Positions 2,805 to 53,983 of a stretch of DNA of 56,014 nt are shown piece by piece. Position 1 is the first letter of the stretch; every line of letters begins with the position of its first letter. The notes below the pieces were generated by a model. The model did not search any database. It worked only from the letters and a program-made list of their open reading frames with translations, and had not been told where the DNA came from. The stretch comes from a virus. The position numbers and the translations under genes are program-made. The stretch lies in the IMG/VR virus record IMGVR_UViG_3300024265_000059, positions 1 through 56,014 of that record; one strand, given 5' to 3'.

Positions 2805-3747
2805 ATGTAGTTCATCTGCCATAAATCTGTATAATCATTGTCCATTTTCGTATTTCATGCAGTACATATTAGGCATGGAATCGCAGTCTGGGAAAGCTGC
2901 GCTTCAAGGGAGCATAGTACATCAGACTCTAGAGTGGATGATTCTCTTGAGTAAACATGGGAAAACTAATGTTGATCCCATGTGGCTACTGCATCGTGCT
3001 TGGGACGAACTCGTTGTTAAGTCTCCGACTATCAGTATTCGTAAGATAACTACAAGACTTGATAGAGAGACTGGACGCCACAAGGAAGCGGCAGATTTCA
3101 AGAAGTGTCGTGTTGCTCTGGAGCATATTCTGGCAAACGAATTTTACAATCCGTATAATTTGACAAAGATAATTTGTGTAGAACAGTGGTTCGCGTTGGA
3201 AATACCAGGAGAAGAGTGGAAGTGCCTGGACAAGGAAAACAAAGAACACCAATTTGCCATTCGTGGTTTGATAGACTTAGTACACGAGATCGACGAAGAT
3301 ACAATAGAAATCGTAGACTGGAAAACAGGTAAGAAAAAAAGCTTCTATACGCAAATAGATATCGACGAAGCAGTGTTGATGCGGGAAGTTCAGCCGAGGC
3401 TGTACCATCTCGCGGCATTCGATTTGTACCCACAATACAAAAATATATGGGTTACCTTCTATTACTGCAACGATGGTGGTCCAGTGACTATATCTCTTTC
3501 TCGTGATGATATACCTCTGACTATAGCTAGCCTTCACCGTTTTTTGACAACAGTTAGCAAGGATACGCTGATTCGTAGGAACCGTTCATGGAAATGCCGG
3601 ATGTGTAGTTTTGAGAAGAATAGTACGTGCCATAAGGTGTGGTCTGATTTGCACACCTTGGGGGGCGAATACGTTGAGCAGAAGTATGCAGACTTGACAT
3701 TTGAAGGCCAGCAACTAATTGGGAAGACAGAGGAATTAGATGTCTAA
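2791..3747 (+). CDS. PD-(D/E)XK nuclease, Cas4/RecB-like, with C-terminal Cys cluster
   Basis: Probable ssDNA exonuclease of the RecB/Cas4 superfamily. The start ATG overlaps the previous gene by 14 bases and has GGGGAG upstream. The N-terminal RCSSSAINLYNHCPFSYFMQY is a typical RecB-family Q/R helix carrying the first Cys. GSIVHQTLEWM supplies the conserved His, and IRGLIDLVHE ... IEIVDWKTGKK supplies the D...(D/E)xK catalytic core. QPRLYHLAAF follows. The C-terminus WKCRMCSFEKNSTCHKVW has the three further cysteines expected for a Cas4/AddB-type Fe-S cluster. Its place in the replication operon suggests end processing for recombination or replication. Confidence 0.85.
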   Translation: MRVVRCSSSAINLYNHCPFSYFMQYILGMESQSGKAALQGSIVHQTLEWMILLSKHGKTNVDPMWLLHRAWDELVVKSPTISIRKITTRLDRETGRHKEAADFKKCRVALEHILANEFYNPYNLTKIICVEQWFALEIPGEEWKCLDKENKEHQFAIRGLIDLVHEIDEDTIEIVDWKTGKKKSFYTQIDIDEAVLMREVQPRLYHLAAFDLYPQYKNIWVTFYYCNDGGPVTISLSRDDIPLTIASLHRFLTTVSKDTLIRRNRSWKCRMCSFEKNSTCHKVWSDLHTLGGEYVEQKYADLTFEGQQLIGKTEELDV

Positions 3748-6115
3748 CCTCAAGGAAAAAAGCAAGATGAGTAAGAAAACTTATTGTCCCCTCCACGTAC
3801 ACTCTTTCTACTCGCTACTGGATGGCTTGTCTTCTCCGAAAGCCCTCGTAAAGAGATGTGTTGAACTTGGTCTGCCGGGTTGCGCGATAACTGACCACGG
3901 TAGCATAAGTGCCATGAAATCATTTTATGATGCATGTAGAAAAGCAAAAATCAAACCCGTCATTGGGTGCGAGATGTACATCTGTTTGCAGGATGCCACG
4001 ATCAAGAATAACGACAACAATAAGCGACACCACTTAATAGTGCTGGCCAAAAACGACCAAGGCATAAAAGACCTGATGTCTTTGGTTAGCGAATCCAATA
4101 AGCCGGAACACTTCTACAGGAAACCTCGTATCAGTATGGAAGGTCTTGCTCCGTTTGCGAGCAAGGGCAACCTCATTCTTCTGTCTGCGTGTATCGGTGG
4201 AGAACTACCCTCTAGCTTGTTCACCGATTTCAAAGCGGCGTGCAGCCTAAGTGAACATGGTGGCGAAACCAATCTATTACAAGTCCGAGCGTGTCTAAAG
4301 CCAGATTGGAAAGAAGTTGGTAAAGAGATCATAAAGAGATTTGTTACCATAGCTGGCGAAGGTAACTTCTATCTTGAACTTCAGGACGAAGGCATGTCTG
4401 TCCAGACTGTGGTTACGGAATGTTTGAGAATATTGGGTGAAGAGACAGGAATTCCTACAGTAGCAACTATAGATGCTCATTACGCATCTAAGAAAGATGC
4501 AGAAGATCAAAGACTACTTCTATATGCGCAACTACACACCACAAAAGAAGATCAGGCTCGCAAACAACAGCAGGGTATAGACATAATGGACTTTTTTGTG
4601 TCGGACGAATATTTCATACCTTCCTATGAAGAAATGAGGAAAAGATTCACAGAGGAAGAACTTCAGGCGTCCGTAGACATAGTCGACACCATCAATTACT
4701 CGGAACTTGGACATGATCCTTATCTGCCGATTTTCACAAATAAAGAATCAGAGAAGTTGGGATTGAATTCCAATGATTATCTGAAGCATCTTTGTATAGA
4801 AGGTGCCAAGGTGAAGTTGTCACACCTTGATGGTGCCCAAAAGAAAGTCTATTGGGACAGGCTACAAAGAGAACTGATCGTTATTGCAGAAGCGAAACTG
4901 GCTGATTACTTCTTGATAGTATGGGATGCATGTCGATTTGTCGATAGCAAAAACGGGCCTAGAGGCAAAGGTCGAGGGTCTGGCGCTGGTTCACTAATCA
5001 ACTACCTTACAGGTATCACTGGTATTGATCCGATCGAATACGGTCTGTATTTTGAGAGATTCTACAACATGAGTCGTAACATCCCTCCACACTTTGATGT
5101 TGGTTCGGTAGACTTCATGTCGTGGATGTCAGACAATTTCGAATTATTACACACTAGGGATACAGACGAAGAGAGAAAAGCGGTATCTCTACATTTGGCA
5201 AGACGGATAAATGGGGGCAAGGTCAAGTTCACCGCCGCGATGAAGGCAGAAGTTGAATGGATCGACGCCAAGAATCAACGGATGTGGATGTATCTATATG
5301 ACATGATTCAGGGTAAACCGGCTTCAAATCCTTCTAATTCGCATCTGGCATACGGTCTTGGCATAACGATTGCTGAGCAAAATGAGCTAGATATCGATCG
5401 CAAGGTCAAAACCCATGACGGTCATATTAGTTTACCAGATATCGACACTGATATCGGCGTTGTGTTCCGTAGTGAGGTTATCGCCTATCTAAAAGAGAGA
5501 TGGGGAGAGGATTATGTAGCTCAAATGATCACGTTCGGTCGCTTACAGGGCAAGGCAGCGCTGAAAGAAGTGTTCCGTGCTCAGCCCGATCTGGTCAGGC
5601 ATCTGATGAAGGTCAAAGCACTCAAGGAAGGCAAAGATGTCACAGATATCAGTACGACACCACACGATCTGTGTAACGAAATAACACGATACATACCCGA
5701 CGAAGCTTCAATCGCAGATGAGTTGAGACAAGCCAGGAATGAGCAGGGAGATGATTATGGCATTCTGCAATGGGCTATACATCACGTAGATCAAGTTCAG
5801 GATGCTTATGAGTGGTACAAACCGTTGTTTGACCAAGCTATGAGAATTGAAGGTACCAAAAAGTCCCAGTCAAAACACGCCGCTGGCGTTGTCATAGCCG
5901 ACAGACCGATAGAAGGACTTGTTCCGTTAGCCTACGATGCTAAGAATAAGGATCGTGTCGTTGGTCTAGAGATGGCAAACGCAGAAGCCCTGGGCGCTGT
6001 CAAGTTCGACTTCTTGGGCGTTGTTGCTCTGGACAAATTGTGGGAAGCCCAAGATTTGATCAACGGTAAACTGTCGAACAAGGTATTGGACGAAGAATTT
6101 GTGGAGACCGAATGA
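3740..6115 (+). CDS. dnaE: DNA polymerase III alpha subunit, N-terminal fragment (PHP and palm)
   Basis: First half of a split C-family replicative polymerase. The start at 3740 has AGAGGA upstream; an ATG at 3767 with AAGGA is an alternative. The PHP domain opens with CPLHVHSFYSLLDG and ITDHGSI. The polymerase motif KGRGSGAGSLINYLTGIT lies near residue 410. LPDIDTD (about 565-571) carries the first catalytic aspartates and KFDFLGV (about 755) the third, so the full active-site triad is in this half. About 115 residues are inserted between FERFYN and LPDIDTD, where DnaE normally has under ten. The protein ends at 791 residues, just after KFDFLG, without fingers or C-terminal domains; these are encoded at 16739-18691. 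No intein motif is visible at the end. Confidence 0.93.
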   Translation: MSNLKEKSKMSKKTYCPLHVHSFYSLLDGLSSPKALVKRCVELGLPGCAITDHGSISAMKSFYDACRKAKIKPVIGCEMYICLQDATIKNNDNNKRHHLIVLAKNDQGIKDLMSLVSESNKPEHFYRKPRISMEGLAPFASKGNLILLSACIGGELPSSLFTDFKAACSLSEHGGETNLLQVRACLKPDWKEVGKEIIKRFVTIAGEGNFYLELQDEGMSVQTVVTECLRILGEETGIPTVATIDAHYASKKDAEDQRLLLYAQLHTTKEDQARKQQQGIDIMDFFVSDEYFIPSYEEMRKRFTEEELQASVDIVDTINYSELGHDPYLPIFTNKESEKLGLNSNDYLKHLCIEGAKVKLSHLDGAQKKVYWDRLQRELIVIAEAKLADYFLIVWDACRFVDSKNGPRGKGRGSGAGSLINYLTGITGIDPIEYGLYFERFYNMSRNIPPHFDVGSVDFMSWMSDNFELLHTRDTDEERKAVSLHLARRINGGKVKFTAAMKAEVEWIDAKNQRMWMYLYDMIQGKPASNPSNSHLAYGLGITIAEQNELDIDRKVKTHDGHISLPDIDTDIGVVFRSEVIAYLKERWGEDYVAQMITFGRLQGKAALKEVFRAQPDLVRHLMKVKALKEGKDVTDISTTPHDLCNEITRYIPDEASIADELRQARNEQGDDYGILQWAIHHVDQVQDAYEWYKPLFDQAMRIEGTKKSQSKHAAGVVIADRPIEGLVPLAYDAKNKDRVVGLEMANAEALGAVKFDFLGVVALDKLWEAQDLINGKLSNKVLDEEFVETE

Positions 6116-6867: not shown

Positions 6868-7641
6868 ATGAACGCAATGTACGCTGGGCCTTGGGTTGGT
6901 GAATTCGGATGGGAGTTGTGTTGGTGGAATCCAATGATACGACATTACTCTAAACAATATGGGTACACTACGATATCAGCACCAGAAAGTTCCCGATACC
7001 TGTATGAATTTGCCGATACTTTTATTCCACTCAAGACCAAGGGTATCACCTATTGGGAAGGGGAACTAGAAGGCGAATCTCCTGTTGTGACAGAACGATT
7101 TAGTATGACCCCAGAATATGAGTTTGCTCGACACATAAATGAACCAGATAGAGTGTCAGCAAGACGGTCGTGGAGATCGCTGGCACCAGAAAATCCTTTC
7201 AAGGTTGCGGATGTTTTGTGTGCTTTCCGTCCAGAGAAATACATTAGAAATCGTCTTATCCCTGGCAAGGAGTATCCCTTTCAAAAATGTCAGGATATAG
7301 TGAATCTGCTTATCACCAAGGGTTTGTCAGTAGCCTGTTTTGGCGGAACAGAGAATCACTGTCCGACAGGTGCTGTAGACCTGAGAGGTACGTCATTGGA
7401 AAAACAGTGCTCAGCTATCGCTGGGGCAAGATGTGTCGTTGGGCCAAGTAGTGGGCCGATCCACCTTGCCAGCTTGTGCGAGTGTCCACATGTTACATGG
7501 ATAGCGTCGATACATCATACGTTAGAACAACGGTACAAGAAACTATGGAATCCTTTTAATACCCCAGTAAGATTTGTCTGCCATAGTAGGATACCATCAT
7601 GTGAAGAGGTTGTAGAACACGCACTGGAGATTACAAGATGA
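6868..7641 (+). CDS. GT9-like (heptosyltransferase-type) glycosyltransferase
   Basis: GT-B fold protein of 257 residues. RBS AGAGGA lies upstream of the ATG. The N-terminus YAGPWVGEFGWELCWWNPMIRH resembles the G-E-F/L acceptor loop of GT9 enzymes. The C-terminal half has GLSVACFGGTENHC, then DLRGTSLEKQCSAIAGARCVVG and PSSGPIHLASLCECP. That last block matches the ADP-heptose:LPS heptosyltransferase signature (DSGPMHLAAALG-type). It is somewhat shorter than WaaC/WaaF (about 320-350). It overlaps the next methyltransferase by 4 bases (ATGA). Donor identity is inferred from the neighbouring heptose-kinase-like gene. Confidence 0.7.
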   Translation: MNAMYAGPWVGEFGWELCWWNPMIRHYSKQYGYTTISAPESSRYLYEFADTFIPLKTKGITYWEGELEGESPVVTERFSMTPEYEFARHINEPDRVSARRSWRSLAPENPFKVADVLCAFRPEKYIRNRLIPGKEYPFQKCQDIVNLLITKGLSVACFGGTENHCPTGAVDLRGTSLEKQCSAIAGARCVVGPSSGPIHLASLCECPHVTWIASIHHTLEQRYKKLWNPFNTPVRFVCHSRIPSCEEVVEHALEITR

Positions 7642-16738: not shown

Positions 16739-18691
16739 ATGATCACGTTCAAGAAATGTAAATGCGAAGTAGAGAGAGGTAAATTTAGTGTCAACGATAT
16801 CCCCCTGGATTGCCCAGCCGTGTGGCAGCTTATCGCTACAGGACATACTGTGGGCGTATTTCAACTTGAGAAGAATCTGGGACAAGATTGGTCGAAGAAA
16901 GTTAAGCCGGATAGCCTGGAAGAACTCGCAGCCTTGACAGCCCTCCTTCGCCCCGGTCCTCTTGAAGCCGGTATGACGCAAGATTATGTAGACATCAAAT
17001 TTAAGCGCAAAAAAAACGAGTATTTACACCCAGCGCTAGAACCTATCCTTAAACCAACATTCGGATGTCTTGTGTATCAGGAACAAGCGATTCGCATAGC
17101 TACTGATATTGCCGGATTGAGTCCGGAGAGTGCTGACGAACTACGAAAAGCCATTGGCAAAAAGAAGCCAGAACTCATGGCTAAAGTCAAGAAAAAGTTC
17201 GTAGAAGGTGCCCAGAGCTATGGCAAAATCAGTCAGGAAATAGCAGAAGAAATTTTCGGATGGATTGAGAAGTGCCAACGATATTCGTTTAACAAATCAC
17301 ATGCAATATCCTACGGAATGATTGCGTATCAAACTGCATGGGTAAAGTGTCACTTTCCACAGGAGTTTTTCACCAGCTATCTGACCTATTCGCAATACAA
17401 GGGTGATCCTAAAGAAGAAATTTACAAACTCGTGCAAGACTCTAGATTATTTGGTATCGATATTTTTCCACCAGATATACGACGAGGAAATGTTCACTTC
17501 AAAATGGTTGATAAGCCAAGCAAAGGCATAGCATTTGGCCTGGCGCACATAAGGGGTGTCGGAGCATCAGCAATCCAAAAGATCGTCGCAGCGGGCGAGG
17601 AAACGCCAGCAATGGACCCTTTAGACGAGAATGTACTGAAGCACATGGGTTCTGCGTCGGTGGCTGCAAAATCAGATGCGGTAGAAGCAATTCACAATGG
17701 TTGTCCCAAGCAAGTAAAGTACGGCCTTAAAACTTGGGCAGATTTTTTGGCAGCAGTTCCTGCTTTTCACAGGAATGTTGGAATTGCTCTGATTAAATCT
17801 GGTGCTTGCGATTGCTACCACAGACCACGTAGCGAAATGGTTAGAGAACTCGAAATCGTACTCGGAACCACTGTGAGAGATCACACCGGAAAGAAAGTTG
17901 AAGTTAGAGGGTTAACCGAAAAAGAAAAGGGATACTTTTTCGCCCATCTACAAGAAGACATCATGACCACCAAACAAATCCTGCTAGAAATGTCTCAGCC
18001 CCCAGGAGAGAAAACCAAAACAATCAGACAGATGACCAAGCGAGAACTGGTAAAAACGGCTGTTGGATACCTAGACCAAGCGGATGTGGCTTTTGATGGC
18101 ATCACGGATGGGGACAGTAAATTCGTGTACACGTCTTCTGACGAAAAAGAGACTTGGTTGGACAACGTGCATAGCCGCACCAAAACAGCAATTGAAAAAC
18201 TCATGATTGAGAATGGTTATCAAGACATTGCAGTGAAGCCACCGTGTTCGAGCGAGGCGAGACGGACAAAGATGGCACAGAAAGCGGATATGTTGGAAGA
18301 TGAATTACAAGACACAAACATGGCAAATGCTACGGCTGAAAAACACTTCTTGGGCATTGCTCTATCATGCTCTCAGGCTGATGATGCGGATAATGCATTG
18401 GCTACCCATACATGTTTAGACATCGCAAGAGCGGCCAATAGTGAGTCCATTGCGGTATGCGTGATCATAGATAGTGTCAAGCATACAAAAACCAAGCGTG
18501 GACGTAATCCTGGTCAGCCGATGTGTTTCCTAACCATGTCTGACGCAACCTACTCGATCGATCATGCGGTTGTTTTTCCAGATGCTTTCGACAGACTGAA
18601 GGCATTTTGCAAAGACGATTTAATTGGTCTTGTGTTCGGCGAAAAAAAGAACGGTAGCTTTATCGTAAAAGATATTCAGAAATTGATGTAA
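16739..18691 (+). CDS. dnaE: DNA polymerase III alpha subunit, C-terminal fragment (fingers to OB fold)
   Basis: Second half of the split polymerase, 650 residues. It opens with about 20 residues of strand and then resumes DnaE exactly where the first half stopped: NDIPLDCPAVWQL, TVGVFQLEKN (about 38-43), ALLRPGPLEAG, CLVYQEQAIRIA, LRKAIGKKKPELM and RYSFNKSHAISYGMIAYQTAW (about 180). The last of these is the site where cyanobacterial DnaE carries its split intein; here it is uninterrupted and has Ser instead of Cys. A helix-hairpin-helix region (GLAHIRGVGASAI) and an OB-fold (VCVIIDSVKHTKTKRG...MCFLTMSD) follow. No catalytic aspartate lies in this half, so it must act with dnaE-N (3740-6115). 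The C-terminal tau-binding region of long DnaE is not evident. Confidence 0.92.
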   Translation: MITFKKCKCEVERGKFSVNDIPLDCPAVWQLIATGHTVGVFQLEKNLGQDWSKKVKPDSLEELAALTALLRPGPLEAGMTQDYVDIKFKRKKNEYLHPALEPILKPTFGCLVYQEQAIRIATDIAGLSPESADELRKAIGKKKPELMAKVKKKFVEGAQSYGKISQEIAEEIFGWIEKCQRYSFNKSHAISYGMIAYQTAWVKCHFPQEFFTSYLTYSQYKGDPKEEIYKLVQDSRLFGIDIFPPDIRRGNVHFKMVDKPSKGIAFGLAHIRGVGASAIQKIVAAGEETPAMDPLDENVLKHMGSASVAAKSDAVEAIHNGCPKQVKYGLKTWADFLAAVPAFHRNVGIALIKSGACDCYHRPRSEMVRELEIVLGTTVRDHTGKKVEVRGLTEKEKGYFFAHLQEDIMTTKQILLEMSQPPGEKTKTIRQMTKRELVKTAVGYLDQADVAFDGITDGDSKFVYTSSDEKETWLDNVHSRTKTAIEKLMIENGYQDIAVKPPCSSEARRTKMAQKADMLEDELQDTNMANATAEKHFLGIALSCSQADDADNALATHTCLDIARAANSESIAVCVIIDSVKHTKTKRGRNPGQPMCFLTMSDATYSIDHAVVFPDAFDRLKAFCKDDLIGLVFGEKKNGSFIVKDIQKLM

Positions 18692-47751: not shown

Positions 47752-47815
47752 ACGGGTATTTTTATGGGGGCAGATGCCGTTATTCCTGTGTTTCCCACAT
47801 TGCAAGAGATAATAA

Positions 47816-47889
47816 CAGGCCGAGCAAGGTTCGAACTTGCAACCTCCAGGTTCAAAGCCTGGCGCTCTGTCCAGTTGAGCTATCGGCCC
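47816..47889 (-). tRNA. trnQ: tRNA-Gln (anticodon TTG)
   Basis: Full cloverleaf on the minus strand: acceptor GGGCCGA/TCGGCCT, D arm GCTC...GAGC, anticodon stem CCAGG/CCTGG with loop CTTTGAA, T arm GCAAG/CTTGC with TTCGAAC. Reads CAA. CCA is not encoded. Confidence 0.93.
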
Positions 47890-47892
47890 ATA

Positions 47893-47977
47893 CGGATGGC
47901 GGTGGACTCGAACCACAGACGTTTGACCGCCCCAACCGGTTAGCAACCGGCGGCAGGGCCTTTCTGCTTCACCATCC
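47893..47977 (-). tRNA. trnS: tRNA-Ser (anticodon GCT)
   Basis: Class II tRNA: acceptor GGATGGT/GCCATCC, anticodon loop TTGCTAA on a GCCGG/CCGGT stem, long variable arm, T arm GTGG/CCAC with TTCGAGT. Reads AGC/AGU. Three bases separate it from tRNA-Gln. Confidence 0.92.
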
Positions 47978-47993
47978 AAAGACCCCATTCTAT

Positions 47994-48009
47994 GGAGTAT
48001 ATATACTCC
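47994..48009. repeat. Perfect 16-base palindrome between two tRNA-Ser genes
   Basis: GGAGTATATATACTCC reads identically on both strands. It lies 17 bases outside the 5' end of tRNA-Ser(GCT), in the spacer to tRNA-Ser(TGA). It may form a short processing hairpin in the tRNA precursor or bind a dimeric protein. Confidence 0.6.
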
Positions 48010-48031
48010 TTAGAACAAGGTAAATCCAAAA

Positions 48032-48117
48032 CGGAAGATAGAGGAATCGAACCCCCGACGCTCATCACGCCGCCCTCGGGTTCAAACCGAGTTTCCGACC
48101 ATTCAGAGGTATCTTCC
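48032..48117 (-). tRNA. trnS: tRNA-Ser (anticodon TGA)
   Basis: Class II: acceptor GGAAGAT/ATCTTCC, anticodon stem CTCGG/CCGAG with loop TTTGAAC, long variable arm (GGCGGCGTGATGAGCGTC), T loop TTCGATT. Reads UCA/UCN. Confidence 0.92.
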
Positions 48118-48126
48118 AGTGCGCAC

Positions 48127-48161
48127 AAAAAAACCGGACAATCCCAAGGGACCATCCGGTT
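48127..48161 (-). terminator. Rho-independent terminator
   Basis: Minus-strand stem AACCGGA/TCCGGTT with inner TCCC/GGGA pairing, then seven T residues. It follows the 23-residue ORF at 48190-48261. Confidence 0.85.
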
Positions 48162-48189
48162 CTGATTCTGTGTTTTAGTGTACTCGAAT

Positions 48190-48261
48190 CTACACAGCAT
48201 CCCCCAGACGGCCAAGAGACCGTTGACTACTCGATTGGGATGACTGCTGTCGATTTTTCAT
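48190..48261 (-). CDS. 23-residue ORF in its own promoter-terminator unit
   Basis: ATG at 48261 with GGAG six bases upstream, encoding a basic, Ser/Gln-rich peptide (MKNRQQSSQSSSQRSLGR then LGDAV). It lies between a candidate promoter (48337) and a terminator (48127), with another terminator-like hairpin in its leader (48272-48325). It overlaps a region that superficially looks like a degenerate tRNA. It may encode a small protein or be a leader peptide of a regulatory RNA. No homologue recognised. Confidence 0.45.
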   Translation of the reverse strand: MKNRQQSSQSSSQRSLGRLGDAV

Positions 48262-48271
48262 CTTGTTCTCC

Positions 48272-48325
48272 AAAAAAAACCAGCCCTTGATGCACGTAAC
48301 CCAATTGAGAAAGAGGTGCGGCTGG
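48272..48325 (-). terminator. Terminator/attenuator-like hairpin in a leader
   Basis: Minus-strand GTGC...CCAGCC pairs with GGGCTGG (6-10 bp with an A-rich loop), followed by eight T residues and then GGAG of the 23-residue ORF. A terminator between promoter and RBS would act as an attenuator; that reading is inference. Confidence 0.5.
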
Positions 48326-48336
48326 TGTGTTACTAT

Positions 48337-48348
48337 GTTATACACCAA
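48337..48348 (-). promoter_or_regulatory. Candidate phage promoter (TTGGTGTATAAC)
   Basis: Minus-strand TTGGTGTATAAC directly after the 3' end of tRNA-Ile, so transcription of the downstream small unit could start just behind the tRNA array. Shares TTGGTGTATAA with the 47028 element. Confidence 0.5.
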
Positions 48349-48424
48349 TGCGCCTAGATGGATTTGAACCACCGACATCACGCTTATCAGGCGTGCGCTC
48401 TGAGCCAGACTGAGCTACAGGCAC
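48349..48424 (-). tRNA. trnI: tRNA-Ile (anticodon GAT)
   Basis: Acceptor GTGCCTG/TAGGCGC, anticodon stem CACGC/GCGTG with loop CTGATAA, T arm GGTGG/CCATC with TTCAAAT. Reads AUC/AUU. Confidence 0.92.
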
Positions 48425-48429
48425 TTCAA

Positions 48430-48502
48430 CGGGCCGGGAAGGAGTCGAACCCTCAACCAACGGCTTTGGAAACCGACGCTCTGCCAATTAAGCTACCGAC
48501 CC
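48430..48502 (-). tRNA. trnW: tRNA-Trp (anticodon CCA)
   Basis: Acceptor GGGTCGG/CCGGCCC, D arm GCTT...GAGC, anticodon loop TTCCAAA on TCGGT/GCCGT (outer U-U mismatch), T arm GAGGG/CCTTC with TTCGACT. Reads UGG. Confidence 0.9.
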
Positions 48503-48530
48503 ACTATCTTGTTCGTTCAAAAAAACACAA

Positions 48531-48604
48531 CGGGCCGGGTGGGACTCGAACCCACGATAGCCGGGTTAGAAACCCAGTCCTTTGTCCATCTAAGGTACCA
48601 GCCC
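48531..48604 (-). tRNA. trnR: tRNA-Arg (anticodon TCT)
   Basis: Acceptor GGGCTGG/CCGGCCC, anticodon stem CTGGG/CCCGG with loop TTTCTAA, T arm GTGGG/CCCAC with TTCGAGT. Reads AGA/AGG, codons favoured by the AT-rich phage. Confidence 0.93.
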
Positions 48605-48608
48605 AACA

Positions 48609-49697
48609 TTATTCGACATTATCCCGTTCTAATTTGTTATTGTGAGGACGAATCCTCTTCATCACATAGCTGTCGACCTTGTGATAGTGACTATCGAGTA
48701 AAGCAAACATGGCAGGCGTATGCTTGACTTTTTGTGCCTTGGCTGCAAAATCGCATCTTGGAACTCGATCCATAATTCCGCCGAATTCTTCGAAATAGAT
48801 GTCATCAAACTCCTTATGAATTTCACTATGTAATGTCTGATACTGCTTCTCTAGTACTTCAACAATACTGTTAAGAAGATCGTGGTACTCTATATCCACT
48901 TGACTCCAAACGTCTTTTGTCACTTCTCCATCTACCATGTTGTTCCACATGACTAGCGGAGTAAGGTTGCTCAACAGATGATGCCGCCTGAAATAATCTT
49001 CCGACTTGATTTTGACACGAAAGCCATTGGTAAATCTGATAACAAAACCTTCTTGCTCATTACCCGGAATGGTCTTCAATGATCCACGACACGCGCCTAA
49101 CCAATTTTGATCATAGGACTTTACGAGTGTAAAGCCGTAATCGCTGGCAAAACTTGCTACTTCGCACCAACGATATTCTTTGCCGGTGTGTCTATTATAC
49201 GCAGAAAGCAAAACCAAATCCTCACGATCTCCGTAGTCAACAACAATTTTCGTGATTGGGCATATCAATTCGAAAACTAGAGTAACCTCATCTGGGAATC
49301 CATCAAGATCGTAATTATCATCTAGAAATTTCGAAGCCCATATCGCTCCAGGACTAGTGAATGAACCGCGAGAAGCAACCTTGTGCTGACCAGCATGACG
49401 ATAAAGAGAGCCAAACCATCCATCCTCTTTTTTGAATATTCTGAACCCATCGTGCCATGGTAGATTACGCTCCTGAGTGTCTGTTCTCTCGTTCATGTTG
49501 AAGAACTTGGGGAAGGTCTGTGCCACAACCTCTCCTGTCTGGCGATTGAAGATTATACCTCTGCTGTTTATCGTAGTTTCATCCCACTGTTTGCAGTGAT
49601 TGGTGTAGTTGTAGATACGAAGATCATCAAGATCAGCACATCTCAGCACGCCTTCTGCAACCAGACGATCTCGTATTTCTATTTGTGGGTGTTTCAT
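48609..49697 (-). CDS. rnlA: T4 Rnl1-like RNA ligase
   Basis: 362 residues with RBS AGGA. ATP-dependent ligase that seals RNA ends, typically cleaved tRNA. Nucleotidyltransferase motifs are in order: SRGIIFNRQTGEVVA, motif I FKKEDGWFGSLY (the Lys of KEDG is adenylated), motif IIIa-like TLVFELICP, motif IV EGFVIRF and motif V FRVKIKSEDYFRRHH. Architecture and the C-terminal helical region match T4 RNA ligase 1. Placed between tRNA-Arg and the ribosome recycling factor, within the tRNA array, it is best explained as tRNA repair against host anticodon nucleases, as known for T4 Rnl1. A polynucleotide kinase is not visible here; a HAD phosphatase is (52726-53031). Confidence 0.9.
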   Translation of the reverse strand: MKHPQIEIRDRLVAEGVLRCADLDDLRIYNYTNHCKQWDETTINSRGIIFNRQTGEVVAQTFPKFFNMNERTDTQERNLPWHDGFRIFKKEDGWFGSLYRHAGQHKVASRGSFTSPGAIWASKFLDDNYDLDGFPDEVTLVFELICPITKIVVDYGDREDLVLLSAYNRHTGKEYRWCEVASFASDYGFTLVKSYDQNWLGACRGSLKTIPGNEQEGFVIRFTNGFRVKIKSEDYFRRHHLLSNLTPLVMWNNMVDGEVTKDVWSQVDIEYHDLLNSIVEVLEKQYQTLHSEIHKEFDDIYFEEFGGIMDRVPRCDFAAKAQKVKHTPAMFALLDSHYHKVDSYVMKRIRPHNNKLERDNVE

Positions 49698-49707
49698 GTC
49701 TTTTTTC

Positions 49708-50184
49708 CTAGACTTTCCCTGAAATCAATTGGTCTATTTCTTCAATTGCGATATTCGTCATTTTCTGCAATTCTTTGTCATCGCAATCTTTGTTTTTTTT
49801 TCTGAAGTTTCTTCTGATATTTCGGACAGATACCTTGGCGTCTTCTCCAAGTTTGTTCATCTTTGAAGCAACTTCTCGTCTGGTATCTCCAGAAATAAGC
49901 GGTATGTTTACCACCACGGTTGTCTTAGAAAATTTGTACGCATCAAAACCTTGCTTCTTCAATTCTTCCTCTACCTTCGCCATTATCGATGGATCATATG
50001 GTGTTATAGATATTCTTCTGTCTTTTTGGTTGATCAAGCACAGATGTTCAAGCGGTGTCTGTTGACCACTGTAATCTATTGTCACAGTAGAAATTAGATC
50101 GTCATTGATATTGCCGCCCATTCCTTTAAGTTGATCTCTAAGAAAATCAACAGTTTTCTTCATGAGCGATCTGGTTTTTTCCAT
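49708..50184 (-). CDS. frr: Ribosome recycling factor (phage-encoded)
   Basis: 158 residues; ATG at 50184 has GGAGG five bases upstream, right after the 3' end of tRNA-Lys. Domain order follows RRF: first helix MEKTRSLMKKTVDFLRDQLK, then domain II strands STVTIDYSGQQTPLEHL, RRISITPYDPSIMAKVEEEL and TVVVNIPLISGDTRREVA, then the domain I helix KLGEDAKVSVRNIRRNFRKK. The last block keeps the VRNxRR arginines that RRF needs to split ribosomes with EF-G. A final helix is ELQKMTNIAIEEIDQLI. Against about 185 residues in bacteria it lacks part of helix 1 and the acidic C-terminal stretch. It may keep ribosomes turning over on phage mRNA, or replace a host factor that is lost. Confidence 0.88.
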   Translation of the reverse strand: MEKTRSLMKKTVDFLRDQLKGMGGNINDDLISTVTIDYSGQQTPLEHLCLINQKDRRISITPYDPSIMAKVEEELKKQGFDAYKFSKTTVVVNIPLISGDTRREVASKMNKLGEDAKVSVRNIRRNFRKKNKDCDDKELQKMTNIAIEEIDQLISGKV

Positions 50185-50197
50185 CACAAACCTCCAA

Positions 50198-50270
50198 TGG
50201 GTCGGGTGGGATTCGAACCCACGGCCCCCCGCTTAAAAGGCGGAAGCTCTGTCCACTGAGCTACCAACCC
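50198..50270 (-). tRNA. trnK: tRNA-Lys (anticodon TTT)
   Basis: Acceptor GGGTTGG/CCGACCC, anticodon stem TCCGC/GCGGG with loop CTTTTAA, T arm GTGGG/CCCAC. Reads AAA/AAG. Confidence 0.93.
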
Positions 50271-50273
50271 ATA

Positions 50274-50347
50274 TGGGAATGGTGAGATTCGAACTCACGA
50301 CCCGCTGGTTAAGAGCCAGCCGCTCTGATCCGCTGAGCTACATTCCC
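50274..50347 (-). tRNA. trnK: tRNA-Lys (anticodon CTT)
   Basis: Acceptor GGGAATG/CATTCCC, anticodon stem GCTGG/CCAGC with loop CTCTTAA, T arm GTGAG/CTCAC. Reads AAG. Three bases from tRNA-Lys(TTT). Confidence 0.93.
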
Positions 50348-50350
50348 GAA

Positions 50351-50421
50351 TACCAGTGACAGGAGTCGAACCTGCGCCTCCTGATCCACAGTCAGGCGTT
50401 CTGCCGTTAAACCACACCGGC
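50351..50421 (-). tRNA. trnH: tRNA-His (anticodon GTG) without G-1
   Basis: Acceptor GCCGGTG/CACTGGT, anticodon stem CCTGA/TCAGG with loop CTGTGGA, T arm GCAGG/CCTGT. Reads CAC/CAU. The base before position 1 is A and the discriminator is A73, with G1-U72. Ordinary bacterial tRNA-His has G-1 and C73; the A73/U72 form without G-1 is known from a Caulobacter-type alphaproteobacterial group. Confidence 0.92.
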
Positions 50422-50429
50422 TACGACAA

Positions 50430-50514
50430 TGGGCAGGATAGGACTCGAACCTACACGCCCTGTTAAGGGACCGGGTTTACAGCCCGGCGAGCCAGCCAAT
50501 TGCTCAACCTACCC
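50430..50514 (-). tRNA. trnY: tRNA-Tyr (anticodon GTA)
   Basis: Class II: acceptor GGGTAGG/CCTGCCC, anticodon stem CCGGG/CCCGG with loop CTGTAAA, variable arm TCCCTTAACAGGGCG, T loop TTCGAGT. Reads UAC/UAU. Confidence 0.92.
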
Positions 50515-51202: not shown

Positions 51203-51286
51203 TGCCTAAGACTGGATTCGAACCAGTACGCCCTTTCGGACACGGGTTTTTGAAACCCGCGCGTCTGCCAGTTCCGCCACATAGGC
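51203..51286 (-). tRNA. trnL: tRNA-Leu (anticodon CAA)
   Basis: Class II: acceptor GCCTATG/CTTAGGC, anticodon stem CGGGT/ACCCG with loop TTCAAAA, variable arm TGTCCGAAAGGGCG, T arm ACTGG/CCAGT. Reads UUG. Confidence 0.92.
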
Positions 51287-51290
51287 TCAA

Positions 51291-51363
51291 TGCCCCGAAT
51301 AGGATTCGAACCTATACTGACATGGTTCTAAACCATGTTCCTCTGCCGTTGGGATACCGGGGC
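51291..51363 (-). tRNA. Class I tRNA with anticodon TAG (nominally Leu)
   Basis: Acceptor GCCCCGG/TCGGGGC, D arm TCC/GGA, anticodon stem CATGG/CCATG with loop TTTAGAA, variable loop of only five bases (TCAGT), T arm ATAGG/CCTAT. The anticodon UAG reads CUA, a leucine codon, but every canonical bacterial tRNA-Leu has a long variable arm, and the neighbouring Leu tRNAs here do. Its charging is therefore uncertain; it is not an amber suppressor (that would need anticodon CUA). Confidence 0.85.
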
Positions 51364-51444
51364 TCATCTCCGATCCTTACTGTTTTTCCTAACAAAATTT
51401 CGGACAGCTAAGACAAATTCGTGTTCAGTATATCTTTTGGTCAC
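51364..51444 (-). CDS. Possible 26-residue ORF filling a tRNA-tRNA gap
   Basis: GTG start at 51444, stop at 51364-51366 directly next to the 5' base of the TAG-anticodon tRNA. Encodes a basic, helix-forming peptide (MTKRYTEHEFVLAVRNFV then RKNSKDRR). No clear RBS is visible, so this is weak. Listed because it ends exactly at a tRNA, as do the ORFs at 50515 and 51844. Confidence 0.3.
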   Translation of the reverse strand: MTKRYTEHEFVLAVRNFVRKNSKDRR

Positions 51445-51465
51445 ATCACACACTCACGAATAAAA

Positions 51466-51549
51466 TGCCTGCGCTGGGAGTCGAACCCAGAAACCCTTGC
51501 GGGCACGAGGGTTTAAGCCCCGCTCCTTTGCCTGTTTGGACACACAGGC
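51466..51549 (-). tRNA. trnL: tRNA-Leu (anticodon TAA)
   Basis: Class II: acceptor GCCTGTG/CGCAGGC, anticodon stem CGGGG/CCTCG with loop CTTAAAC, variable arm TGCCCGCAAGGGTTT, T arm CTGGG/CCCAG. Reads UUA/UUG. Confidence 0.92.
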
Positions 51550-51557
51550 TACAACGA

Positions 51558-51758
51558 CTAAAACCAAGTTCTTTTTGTTTTCCCAGAAATCAAATCAAAA
51601 CCTTCACCACATTCATGACATTTCGTGCAATGCCAATACGTTGGATTGACCACCCAAACTGTTGGATAACAACGATGATTTCTGTGATACCACGAACATC
51701 GAAGCCATTTGTGCAAAAATCTTGTAATACGTTTCAAACAATTATCACCATATTTCAC
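51558..51758 (-). CDS. Small Cys/His-rich (zinc-ribbon-like) protein
   Basis: 66 residues from a GTG at 51758 with perfect GGAGG (51765-51769) just behind tRNA-Ala. A basic start is followed by W/H/C-rich sequence (FLHKWLRCSWYHRNHRCY) and an end with HCTKCHECGEGF. It shares the W-x-C-x-x-C / C-terminal design of the 53-residue ORF at 52412-52573. Such small Cys/Trp proteins occur widely in phages and prophages; function unknown. Confidence 0.65.
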   Translation of the reverse strand: MKYGDNCLKRITRFLHKWLRCSWYHRNHRCYPTVWVVNPTYWHCTKCHECGEGFDLISGKTKRTWF

Positions 51759-51771
51759 AATTCACCTCCAA

Positions 51772-51844
51772 TGGAAGGGAAGGGACTCGAACCCTCGACA
51801 TCTGGCTTGCAAAGCCAGCGCTCTCCCAACTGAGCTACCCCCCC
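51772..51844 (-). tRNA. trnA: tRNA-Ala (anticodon TGC)
   Basis: Acceptor GGGGGGG/CCCTTCC, which includes the G3-U70 identity pair; anticodon stem CTGGC/GCCAG with loop TTTGCAA; T arm GAGGG/CCCTT. Reads GCA/GCN. The last base of the upstream stop codon is its first base. Confidence 0.93.
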
Positions 51845-52410
51845 TATTTATCCAATTCGATCCTTCTTTTCTTGCTGTGCCTCTTTTTCTTCTGTGACAC
51901 ATAGCCTTTTGGTATAGGCTCGTCAATTACTTTGTTTACTGCTTCGATTGCCTTTTCCATATTCTCTTTGATATCTACTGTGGTGATATCATCGACATCT
52001 ATCGTAGTTGTAACCGGAAGCATGGTGTCTTCGATTTGCTCTTTCGAAAGCCCCCGATTAGGTATCACACCACTACCAGATATTGGAATGGCATGGATAC
52101 CTGGAGAGAAAAATGGTTGTTGATGATCATTTTTGAACACCTTGAAAATCATACCATCTGGTATGTATTGACTTTCAATTATCTTGACTCCATACATTCT
52201 CATTTGTCCATCTGGATCGGCACCGCCGTTACTTCTGTGGAACATCTTCTGCACTTCATACAAATCATTGGAGCTAATCAAAAAAGCTTCTACGTTATCA
52301 AGCTGTTGACCTTGTTGCTCAATCTCTCTTATGGTATCATGAAATTGCTTACGTATTCGATGCGTAGCCGCCTCAATTTCCGGATCGGAACTATGGTACA
52401 TATCAGCCAT
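51844..52410 (-). CDS. Hypothetical protein upstream of tRNA-Ala
   Basis: 188 residues from ATG at 52410, chosen because it directly follows the stop of the 53-residue ORF (TAAAATG); the frame is open to a GTG at 52467. Helical N-terminus (EIEAATHRIRKQFHDTIREIE), a middle with VEAFLISSNDLYEVQKMFH, and a basic C-terminal tail (SQKKKRHSKKRRIELDK). The stop TAG shares its last base with tRNA-Ala. No family recognised. Confidence 0.55.
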   Translation of the reverse strand: MADMYHSSDPEIEAATHRIRKQFHDTIREIEQQGQQLDNVEAFLISSNDLYEVQKMFHRSNGGADPDGQMRMYGVKIIESQYIPDGMIFKVFKNDHQQPFFSPGIHAIPISGSGVIPNRGLSKEQIEDTMLPVTTTIDVDDITTVDIKENMEKAIEAVNKVIDEPIPKGYVSQKKKRHSKKRRIELDK

Positions 52411-52411
52411 T

Positions 52412-52573
52412 TTACCCATCCCACTGTTCGTGTAGTCTGTCATCGCAGCGAGCACATTGCCATCCACTCATGGTAGAAGATCGATTGAAATCGGTTTCCC
52501 AATTATGCATATGAAGACAGATATAATTGCATCCAGCAAACCAACAAATCATCCTACGAATCATTCTCTTCAT
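52412..52573 (-). CDS. 53-residue Cys/Trp-rich microprotein (zinc-ribbon-like)
   Basis: ATG at 52573 with GGAGAAGAGAC upstream, starting 14 bases after tRNA-Asn. Basic start (MKRMIRRMICWFAGCNYIC), H-rich middle, and a C-terminal WQCARCDDRLHEQW zinc-knuckle-like pair. It overlaps, in another frame, the 5' extension of the 51844-52410 frame, which is a reason to prefer the shorter start there. Similar in plan to 51558-51758. Confidence 0.6.
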   Translation of the reverse strand: MKRMIRRMICWFAGCNYICLHMHNWETDFNRSSTMSGWQCARCDDRLHEQWDG

Positions 52574-52586
52574 GTCTCTTCTCCAA

Positions 52587-52659
52587 CTTACCCGAAGGGA
52601 TTCGAACCCTTGACCTAGCGGTTAACAGCCGCTCGCTCTATCCCCTGAGCTACGGGCAA
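52587..52659 (-). tRNA. trnN: tRNA-Asn (anticodon GTT)
   Basis: Acceptor TTGCCCG/CGGGTAA, anticodon stem AGCGG/CCGCT with loop CTGTTAA, T arm AAGGG/CCCTT. Reads AAC/AAU. Confidence 0.93.
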
Positions 52660-52662
52660 GAC

Positions 52663-52735
52663 TCGGGGTGAAAGGACTCGAACCTTCAACTTCGCGGCCC
52701 CAAACCGCGCACTCTTCCAATTGAGCTACACCCCG
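52663..52735 (-). tRNA. trnP: tRNA-Pro (anticodon TGG)
   Basis: Acceptor CGGGGTG/CACCCCG, anticodon stem CGCGG/CCGCG with loop TTTGGGG, T arm GAAGG/CCTTT. Reads CCA/CCN. The upstream HAD gene ends inside the first ten bases of this tRNA. Confidence 0.93.
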
Positions 52736-53031
52736 TTTTTCACTAACTTCAAAAAACCATCAAGCGTTGAACATGTTGAATTGACAGTACACAATTTCTC
52801 AAACTCCTGGCAATGATCATCTATCAAAACGTCAGCGATTGGTTTTACGTGAGATTCTTTATCTCTATAGTCAAATCCCATCAACTGAGCGATAACTTGG
52901 CCATCATCGTGACAAGACCAAACAATAACATGATGACCACCTTTCTTAGCCCAATCCTGAAATCTGGCAAATTGAGGATGCAAATTGCCTCTTATTATAA
53001 CTGTGTCATCAAGGTCCAGAAGGATTCGCAT
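52726..53031 (-). CDS. Small HAD-superfamily phosphatase
   Basis: 101 residues; ATG at 53031 in TGATG overlap with the upstream gene and GGAG ahead. RILLDLDDTVIIRG is HAD motif I (DxDxT form, both Asp present), HHVIVWSCHDD is motif II, and the end IADVLIDDHCQEF is motif IV. No large cap, so a C0-type enzyme acting on nucleic acid or large substrates. In this RNA-repair setting a 3'-phosphatase comparable to the phosphatase half of T4 Pnkp is possible but unproven. Its stop TAG lies within tRNA-Pro. Confidence 0.7.
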   Translation of the reverse strand: MRILLDLDDTVIIRGNLHPQFARFQDWAKKGGHHVIVWSCHDDGQVIAQLMGFDYRDKESHVKPIADVLIDDHCQEFEKLCTVNSTCSTLDGFLKLVKNGV

Positions 53032-53669
53032 CAATCTACTCCGATTACTTCAGTTTCGATTCCACGTTTCCTAGCTTCCGTCACAATATGCTTAGTCCCT
53101 TTAGACTTACTCAGATCGTCGTGGAAGGCAATCACAAGACTCGGTTTTGTATCCAGCATCTTGATGTTCCTTCTCGGTCCTGCTGACAACCCATACTTCT
53201 TCCAAGCTGCCCAGAACGTAACAACTTCAAAACCCATATTCAAAGCAAGGTTACGAGCCATGGTATCAACACCATCGCAACCGCCCTCAACTATAATAGT
53301 ATCAGACGGAAGATCGAAAAGTCGCTTTCTTATCACCTCAACTCCATCGTGTGACCAATCTCTACTGCCGCAAATAACTACCTTCATGGTTTTCTCCAAA
53401 TATTCAGCGATCACATCTCCGTGACAAGCTTCCGGCTTACAAAAACAACCAAGCCGCTTTCCCTTCAACTCTTTTGTTCTACGTGTAAATTCAGGATCAA
53501 TTTTCAATCGATTCAGAAAATACTTGCGATAGAGTTCTATGACCTTCTTTCTACCACCATCTTGGGCAACGCTGAAAGGATTGCCGAAATATCCATCATG
53601 GCCGTTCCCCGCCCTGCCAATGTATTCATCGTATTCTTGTCGACGAATATTAACGACGGTTGTCTTCAT
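53031..53669 (-). CDS. DUF4326-SLOG (DUF2493) fusion protein
   Basis: 212 residues. The N-terminal half (VVNIRRQEYDEYIGRAGNGH, YFGNPF, ELKGKRLGCFCKPEACHGDV) is DUF4326, with its C-x-C/C-x2-CHGD motif. The C-terminal half (MKVVICGSRDW, TIIVEGGCDGVDTMARNLAL, SAGPRRNIKML) is a DUF2493 SLOG Rossmann domain with the GSRxW and GGCxGxDxxAR nucleotide-binding loops and the GPxRN signature. SLOG domains bind or process nucleotide-derived ligands and are frequent in phage and defence loci. The fusion and its role are not something I can assign further; AGGA lies ten bases before the ATG. Confidence 0.78.
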   Translation of the reverse strand: MKTTVVNIRRQEYDEYIGRAGNGHDGYFGNPFSVAQDGGRKKVIELYRKYFLNRLKIDPEFTRRTKELKGKRLGCFCKPEACHGDVIAEYLEKTMKVVICGSRDWSHDGVEVIRKRLFDLPSDTIIVEGGCDGVDTMARNLALNMGFEVVTFWAAWKKYGLSAGPRRNIKMLDTKPSLVIAFHDDLSKSKGTKHIVTEARKRGIETEVIGVD

Positions 53670-53685
53670 GGTCCGATATTCCTAC

Positions 53686-53710
53686 AAAAAAACTCGCGAT
53701 TTCTCGCGAG
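53686..53710 (-). terminator. Rho-independent terminator
   Basis: Minus-strand perfect 7-bp stem CTCGCGA/TCGCGAG with GAAA loop, followed by seven T residues. It ends the 29-residue ORF unit. Confidence 0.9.
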
Positions 53711-53743
53711 CAAAAGTCTTATCTGAAATCGTTCACAGAGAGA

Positions 53744-53833
53744 CTAGCCCGCATCACCACCAGGCGCGCGCAGATTGAGTACGGCTGGGGCTAATGGATA
53801 ATTCCGTCCGGGTTTTCTATACAAGCTTCTCAC
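53744..53833 (-). CDS. 29-residue ORF in its own promoter-terminator unit
   Basis: GTG at 53833 with GGAGG eight bases upstream; stop TAG at 53744-53746. The peptide MRSLYRKPGRNYPLAPAVL then NLRAPGGDAG is basic at the start and Gly/Ala/Pro-rich at the end. A GGGGTATAATGA promoter-like site is 20 bases before the RBS, and a strong terminator is 34 bases after the stop. It is more GC-rich than its neighbours. Could be a small protein, a leader peptide or a processed peptide; no homologue recognised. Confidence 0.5.
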   Translation of the reverse strand: MRSLYRKPGRNYPLAPAVLNLRAPGGDAG

Positions 53834-53852
53834 GATTCATTCCTCCTACATA

Positions 53853-53864
53853 TCATTATACCCC
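53853..53864 (-). promoter_or_regulatory. Candidate phage promoter (GGGGTATAATGA)
   Basis: Minus-strand GGTTTGGGGTATAATGA, just before GGAGG of the 29-residue ORF. Shares TTGGxGTATAAT with 47028 and 48337. Confidence 0.5.
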
Positions 53865-53908
53865 AAACCAACAGGTTTGTGCCAAGAAAAATGAAAAAAA
53901 ACTGAAAA

Positions 53909-53983
53909 TAGCGGGAGAGGGATTCGAACCCTCGACCTCCGGGTTATGAGCCCGATGGGCTAACCAAACTGCCCTACCCCGCA
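53909..53983 (-). tRNA. trnfM: Initiator-type tRNA-Met (anticodon CAT)
   Basis: Acceptor TGCGGGG/TCCCGCT with a U1-U72 mismatch, D arm GGGC...GCCC, anticodon stem TCGGG/CCCGG with loop CTCATAA, T arm GAGGG/CCCTC. An unpaired 1-72 position and the three consecutive G-C pairs next to the anticodon loop are the hallmarks of bacterial initiator tRNA. Confidence 0.88.

Follow-up and report, generated by a model that had tools for sequence, protein, structure and literature searches.

A miniature ribosome recycling factor of two members in the tRNA and RNA ligase arrays of phages

A phage-encoded ribosome recycling factor (RRF) of 158 amino acids lies within a tRNA array, directly upstream of an RNA ligase gene, and has a similarly shortened relative in a matching place in a second phage. 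The two proteins constitute a phage-specific subfamily with a conserved core, conserved deletions, and remodelled hinges and tip. Phage RRFs as such are already known, and what is new here is this conserved miniature subfamily, for which the search gave two members. The reading that we favor, and hold with about even confidence, is that the miniature RRF recycles ribosomes productively together with the EF-G of the host.

The analysed stretch of DNA, termed the window herein, is a complete IMG/VR virus record (IMGVR_UViG_3300024265_000059) of 56,014 bases, which is linear and probably a fragment. The RRF open reading frame (ORF) begins with an ATG at position 50184, six nucleotides (nt) downstream from a GGAGG Shine-Dalgarno (SD) sequence, and ends with a stop codon at 49708 to 49710. 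The locus, with tRNAs as predicted by ARAGORN, is organized as follows.

47815 to 48605, minus strand: downstream tRNA block (Gln, Ser, Ser, Ile, Trp, and Arg)
48609 to 49697, minus strand: T4 Rnl1/RnlA-type RNA ligase, 362 amino acids (PF09511, E = 2e-21; phrog_562, E = 2e-53)
49708 to 50184, minus strand: miniature RRF, 158 amino acids (Pfam PF01765, RRFs in the PDB, AlphaFold2/Foldseek, syntenic relative)
50197 to 50271, minus strand: tRNA-Lys (TTT)
50274 to 50514, minus strand: tRNA-Lys (CTT), tRNA-His (GTG), and tRNA-Tyr (GTA), upstream of the RRF in the same array
51203 to 53983, minus strand: remaining upstream array (three tRNA-Leu, Ala, Asn, Pro, and Met) with small ORFs interspersed

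Altogether, 17 tRNAs are found between 47815 and 53983, all on the minus strand. The neighbors named in a preliminary description of the sequence, tRNA-Lys and an RNA ligase, are therefore both in place, and the ligase clearly exceeds the PF09511 cut-off (77.3 versus 28.3 bits). Only 12 nt separate the end of tRNA-Lys (TTT) from the RRF start codon and 10 nt the RRF stop codon from the ligase start, with an SD-like AGGA of the ligase overlapping the RRF stop codon. This spacing suggests that the RRF might be transcribed together with tRNA-Lys and the ligase. A pattern scan, which is weak evidence, gave no terminator-like site in the two gaps on the minus strand and two weak ones inside the RRF gene; a promoter scan returned as many sites as shuffled sequences, so that no usable promoter or terminator signal was obtained. 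The array also contains a gene (53031 to 53669, minus strand) for a fusion of DUF4326 with a YspA/SLOG-like domain, which is conserved at 65 to 75% identity in related phages.

The assignment to the RRF family is near certain, since Pfam, PDB, and structure searches all return RRFs. PF01765 (RRF) is the sole Pfam family matched (E = 7.3e-25; 88.1 bits versus a cut-off of 29.7), all 17 distinct sequences found with phmmer in the PDB are RRFs (best E = 4e-20), and the AlphaFold2 model (pLDDT 86.4, with a low of about 59 at hinge 1) retrieves with Foldseek only RRFs down to E = 3e-6 (best, 6e-13), the next match of another kind being at 0.02. These values lie far beyond chance similarity. Contamination by host DNA was likewise discarded as an explanation: the contig is filed as a virus in IMG/VR and encodes a PHROG DNA polymerase and a phage RNA ligase beside the tRNA array, and the RRF gene lies outside any pyrH-frr operon. 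The profile search thus bears out the identity proposed from the sequence, and the predicted two-domain fold, a three-helix bundle with domain II inserted after helix 1, agrees with the fold order claimed there. That such proteins are rarely annotated, as also claimed, fits with the absence of any PHROG match and of any BFVD structural match at E ≤ 0.001 for the window RRF, and with the scores of the two miniature proteins against TIGR00496 (frr): 69.7 bits (E = 2.3e-19) for the window RRF and 65.6 bits for its relative, both under the equivalog cut-off of 149.1, which a Bacillus control (275.2 bits) and the RRF of Sinorhizobium phage Phosso (173.5 bits) exceed.

In comparison to Escherichia coli RRF, the window protein is 27 residues shorter. 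The preliminary description had noticed trimming of helix 1 and the C terminus, which is correct (5 N-terminal residues and 6 near the C terminus are missing) but incomplete, as it missed the deletion of R28 in hinge 1 and the largest loss, 13 residues at the tip of the helix 2/helix 3 hairpin, including K144, E150, and D151. Further single residues are lost near R63 and at R99, and R31 is replaced by N. R28, R31, and the missing tip sites are 94 to 100% conserved in 81 bacterial RRFs; R28, R31, R99, and R109, all lost or changed here, are 94 to 99% conserved in bacteria. In the RRF topology, the bundle has the N terminus of helix 1 and the helix 2/3 loop together at one end and the hinge at the other, so that domain I is shortened at its tip, and the hairpin tip is the side of domain I that faces the P-loop. 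The core of helix 2 is kept: the residues invariant in the 81 bacterial RRFs (E122, A124, V126, V128, R129, and R132) are all present, and the VRNIRR motif corresponds to R129, R132, and R133 (E. coli numbering), so the essential arginines are indeed retained as first described. Both hinges are altered: the bacterial hinge 1 motif I-R-T-G-R-A reads M-(gap)-G-G-N-I, and the hinge 2 motif P-x-L-T-E-E-R-R reads P-L-I-S-G-D-T-R-R. In human mitochondria, both RRF hinges contact domain III of EF-G2 (PMC8203779), a correspondence that we mapped by motif and not by superposition.

The second miniature RRF is encoded in IMG/VR record 3300007775_000157 (L119:4836-5318; 160 amino acids). It is 48% identical to the window RRF over 149 amino acids (E = 3e-49), passes PF01765 (72.8 versus 29.7 bits), and has the same hinge 1 gap, short tip, and C-terminal loss; R129, R132, and R133 are kept in an IRNIRR motif, and a QGFDAYxFS stretch is common to both proteins. 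Its model is of higher confidence (pLDDT 91.1), has the same two-domain fold, and retrieves RRFs with Foldseek (best, 4e-11). The gene begins 18 nt past a tRNA-Leu; about 0.65 kb downstream of it follows an orthologous ligase that is 56% identical to the one in the window, and the two loci have at least six other neighbors in common. This syntenic relative strengthens the earlier proposal of a reduced phage RRF in a tRNA/RNA-ligase array. In the tree, the two proteins group together with support of 100/99, separately from every bacterial RRF sampled. The branch is long both for the window RRF alone (3.9) and for the pair, and no donor lineage could be placed. The identity of 48% falls inside the 39 to 65% range of the other shared genes, so that both common descent with losses and transfer within the group are possible histories of the RRF gene. 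The first, second, and third codon positions of the two genes are 60, 73, and 42% identical, a pattern as expected for purifying selection. Since a distant second phage has the same short RRF in a matching place, the protein looks like a maintained phage tool and not an accident. Decay of a horizontally acquired frr without function, or an assembly artefact, is very improbable and largely refuted: the long branch and the lack of an RRF in the closest relatives would fit it, but a second phage carries the same deletions amid syntenic neighbors, with an intact SD sequence and ORF in both genes and the codon pattern just described.

In 17 more closely related virus records, linked through DNA polymerase or ligase and several of them short fragments, the Pfam profile detected no RRF, and neither did a profile built from the two phage RRFs, an absence that is firm only where the locus is covered; 6 of the 17 contigs have an orthologous ligase. 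Another 76 records that have a related ligase gave an RRF in two cases (G018 and G019), which represent one virus because their 13-kb stretches are identical. Weak matches below the cut-off in three others (G060, G064, and G077) were dropped, and the one inspected (L198) falls within an unrelated ORF of 237 amino acids. The relative L089, with a ligase closer to that of the window (64% identical) than the one of the second phage, has no RRF at the junction (tRNA-Lys [TTT] extends to 6877, and the ligase starts at 6897), and in L088 a 355-codon ORF occupies the slot, possibly encoding a radical-SAM protein, as its motif CNLRCPYCRG reads like one. With the slot empty in one relative and filled by a different gene in another, the site upstream of the ligase takes varying cargo. 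Pattern scans of IMG/VR with RRF queries found no relative, and the second phage RRF surfaced only through relatives of the ligase, indicating that such scans miss the miniature lineage; further members may exist.

The miniature proteins share with bacterial RRF (PF01765 and TIGR00496) the two-domain fold, the domain order, and the helix 2 core with R129, R132, and R133. They differ in length (158 to 160 amino acids versus 173 to 188, nearly all 181 to 188, in 80 chromosomal bacterial copies), in lacking R28, R31, at least 13 tip residues, and 6 to 7 C-terminal residues, in their identity of at most 37%, in scoring under the equivalog cut-off, and in lying outside a pyrH-frr operon. That phages may carry their own ribosome turnover factor, as the preliminary description suggested, is correct and has precedent: RRF is among the release, elongation, and initiation factors encoded by huge phages (Al-Shayeb et al. 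2020; PMC7162821), and one is annotated in Phosso. The huge-phage RRFs are likewise found among translation genes; a shortened form does not appear in the part of that description drawn on here, and those phages are of the 200-kb class, whereas the longest contigs of the present phage group are 140 to 181 kb. Phosso (PV764938.1; RRF, XYS97720.1) has a complete genome of 469 kb, and its RRF, unlike the miniature pair, is full length (190 amino acids), keeps R28, the tip, and the C terminus, is encoded near a threonyl-tRNA synthetase and outside a tRNA array, and groups apart in the tree. Among the phage-collection records inspected, a set that leaves out those of Enterococcus and of Pseudomonas phage Y1, it was the only convincing phage RRF. 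The other matches inspected (a Listeria record, two fecal "Bacteriophage sp." records, Acinetobacter MD-2021a, and a Salmonella record) were rejected as bacterial pyrH-frr segments; OR848957, MT835590, MT836050, CAKLQH020000012, and AFYI01000001 are filed as phage and carry a chromosomal pyrH-frr, their RRF being host sequence. The mitochondrial RRFmt is also a diverged lineage with the RRF fold, working with a specialized EF-G2, but its tip carries an added N-terminal extension (PMC9067457), whereas that of the miniature lineage has lost residues. The open-access papers searched contained no account of a shortened phage RRF.

RRF acts with EF-G by a described mechanism (PMC9067457). In our favored reading, the miniature RRF would be cargo in the tRNA/RNA-ligase module of this phage group; it would use helix 2 (VRNIRR) to bind at the normal RRF site of the large subunit, split post-termination (or stalled) ribosomes with host EF-G, and be expressed with the tRNAs, and the freed subunits would keep cycling onto phage mRNA, to the benefit of the phage. 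The shorter P-loop-facing tip of domain I and the rebuilt hinges may tune the handling of P-site tRNA and the coupling to EF-G. Binding at the RRF site is probably retained, as the 50S-binding helix and the complete two-domain fold are kept. The partner is probably supplied by the host, since 14 related contigs, which include fragments, gave no match to the EF-G domain IV or RF-1 families. A published study reports that noncognate RRF/EF-G pairs do not function (PMC7196661), and activity with host EF-G is therefore not to be assumed; the loss or change of R28, R31, R99, and R109, the alteration of both motifs that contact EF-G2 in the mitochondrial complex, and the failure of both proteins at the equivalog cut-off also argue against recycling. 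The RRF and EF-G of Staphylococcus aureus also split hibernating 100S ribosomes (PMC7196661), by analogy a possible further use of the miniature RRF. As for the other roles suggested beforehand, an altered EF-G interaction is plausible given the changes at both hinges; dominance over host RRF or use in anti-defence is speculation.

The main rival, which we regard as possible though doubtful, is that the protein is a mimic that occupies the RRF site without productive coupling to EF-G and holds, protects, or blocks ribosomes or displaces host RRF, slowing host translation or peptidyl-tRNA drop-off as a host-takeover factor. The dominant lethality of Aquifex RRF in E. coli speaks for this possibility, as does the retention of the 50S-facing helix 2 arginines alongside changes, alike in two phages, in the EF-G-facing hinges and the P-loop-facing tip. 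The tip moves the CCA end of P-site tRNA, extra RRF causes drop-off (PMC10192219), and the nonfunctional noncognate pairs (PMC7196661) point in the same direction. On the other hand, the protein retains both domains and the two-hinge layout, there is no direct sign of inhibition, and the tRNA and ligase neighbors support translation rather than shutting it down. In a bolder version that we consider unlikely, the miniature lineage has uncoupled 50S binding at the RRF site from the normal reaction dependent on EF-G and P-site tRNA, yielding a phage-specific ribosome controller; such a protein would tolerate P-site tRNA, spare or arrest chosen ribosomes, or override host RRF.

An improbable alternative is a response to tRNA damage, in which the phage tRNAs and the ligase make up for cleavage by host anticodon nucleases, the former by replacing the cut tRNAs and the latter by repairing them, and the RRF clears the ribosomes that have stalled at starved codons. 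T4 Rnl1 repairs PrrC-cut tRNA-Lys, and the RRF gene is flanked by tRNA-Lys (TTT) and a T4 Rnl1-type ligase in the window and lies upstream of the same ligase in the second phage; moreover, RRF acts on early stalled complexes (PMC10192219). Most ligase-bearing relatives have no RRF, however, the trimmed tip argues against a stronger drop-off activity, and neighborhood alone is a weak sign of a common job.

Bacteria cannot do without RRF, and its length hardly varies among them, which makes the miniature form, a natural RRF without much of the P-loop-facing tip and with both hinges rebuilt, a ready test of what these parts do. The final step of the translation cycle would be open to intervention by phages below the huge class, too, and phage tRNA/ligase modules would extend to ribosome turnover.

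Two further features of the window were observed. The minus strand between 29787 and 46953 contains large ORFs, of which those scanned (903, 575, 630, 358, and others) belong to no Pfam or PHROG family, and the one of 1,114 amino acids among them has no Pfam match; the phage group may be poorly sampled and these ORFs may encode its virion proteins. DNA polymerase III alpha is divided between two ORFs, a PHP/N-terminal part (3740 to 6115, plus strand) and a finger/HHH part (16739 to 18691, plus strand), about 10.6 kb apart, with glycosyltransferase, methyltransferase, and PfkB-type genes between them, and both halves are likewise separated, by about 5 to 10 kb, in several related phages. In three relatives, the N-terminal half is interrupted by about 0.8 to 1.1 kb (L099, 10210 to 11339; L103, 8288 to 9291; L105, 11386 to 12144), near residues 77 to 114 in L099 and L103 and at about 467 to 509 in L105, and the C-terminal half is interrupted by other insertions in some relatives; these insertions may be inteins or introns.
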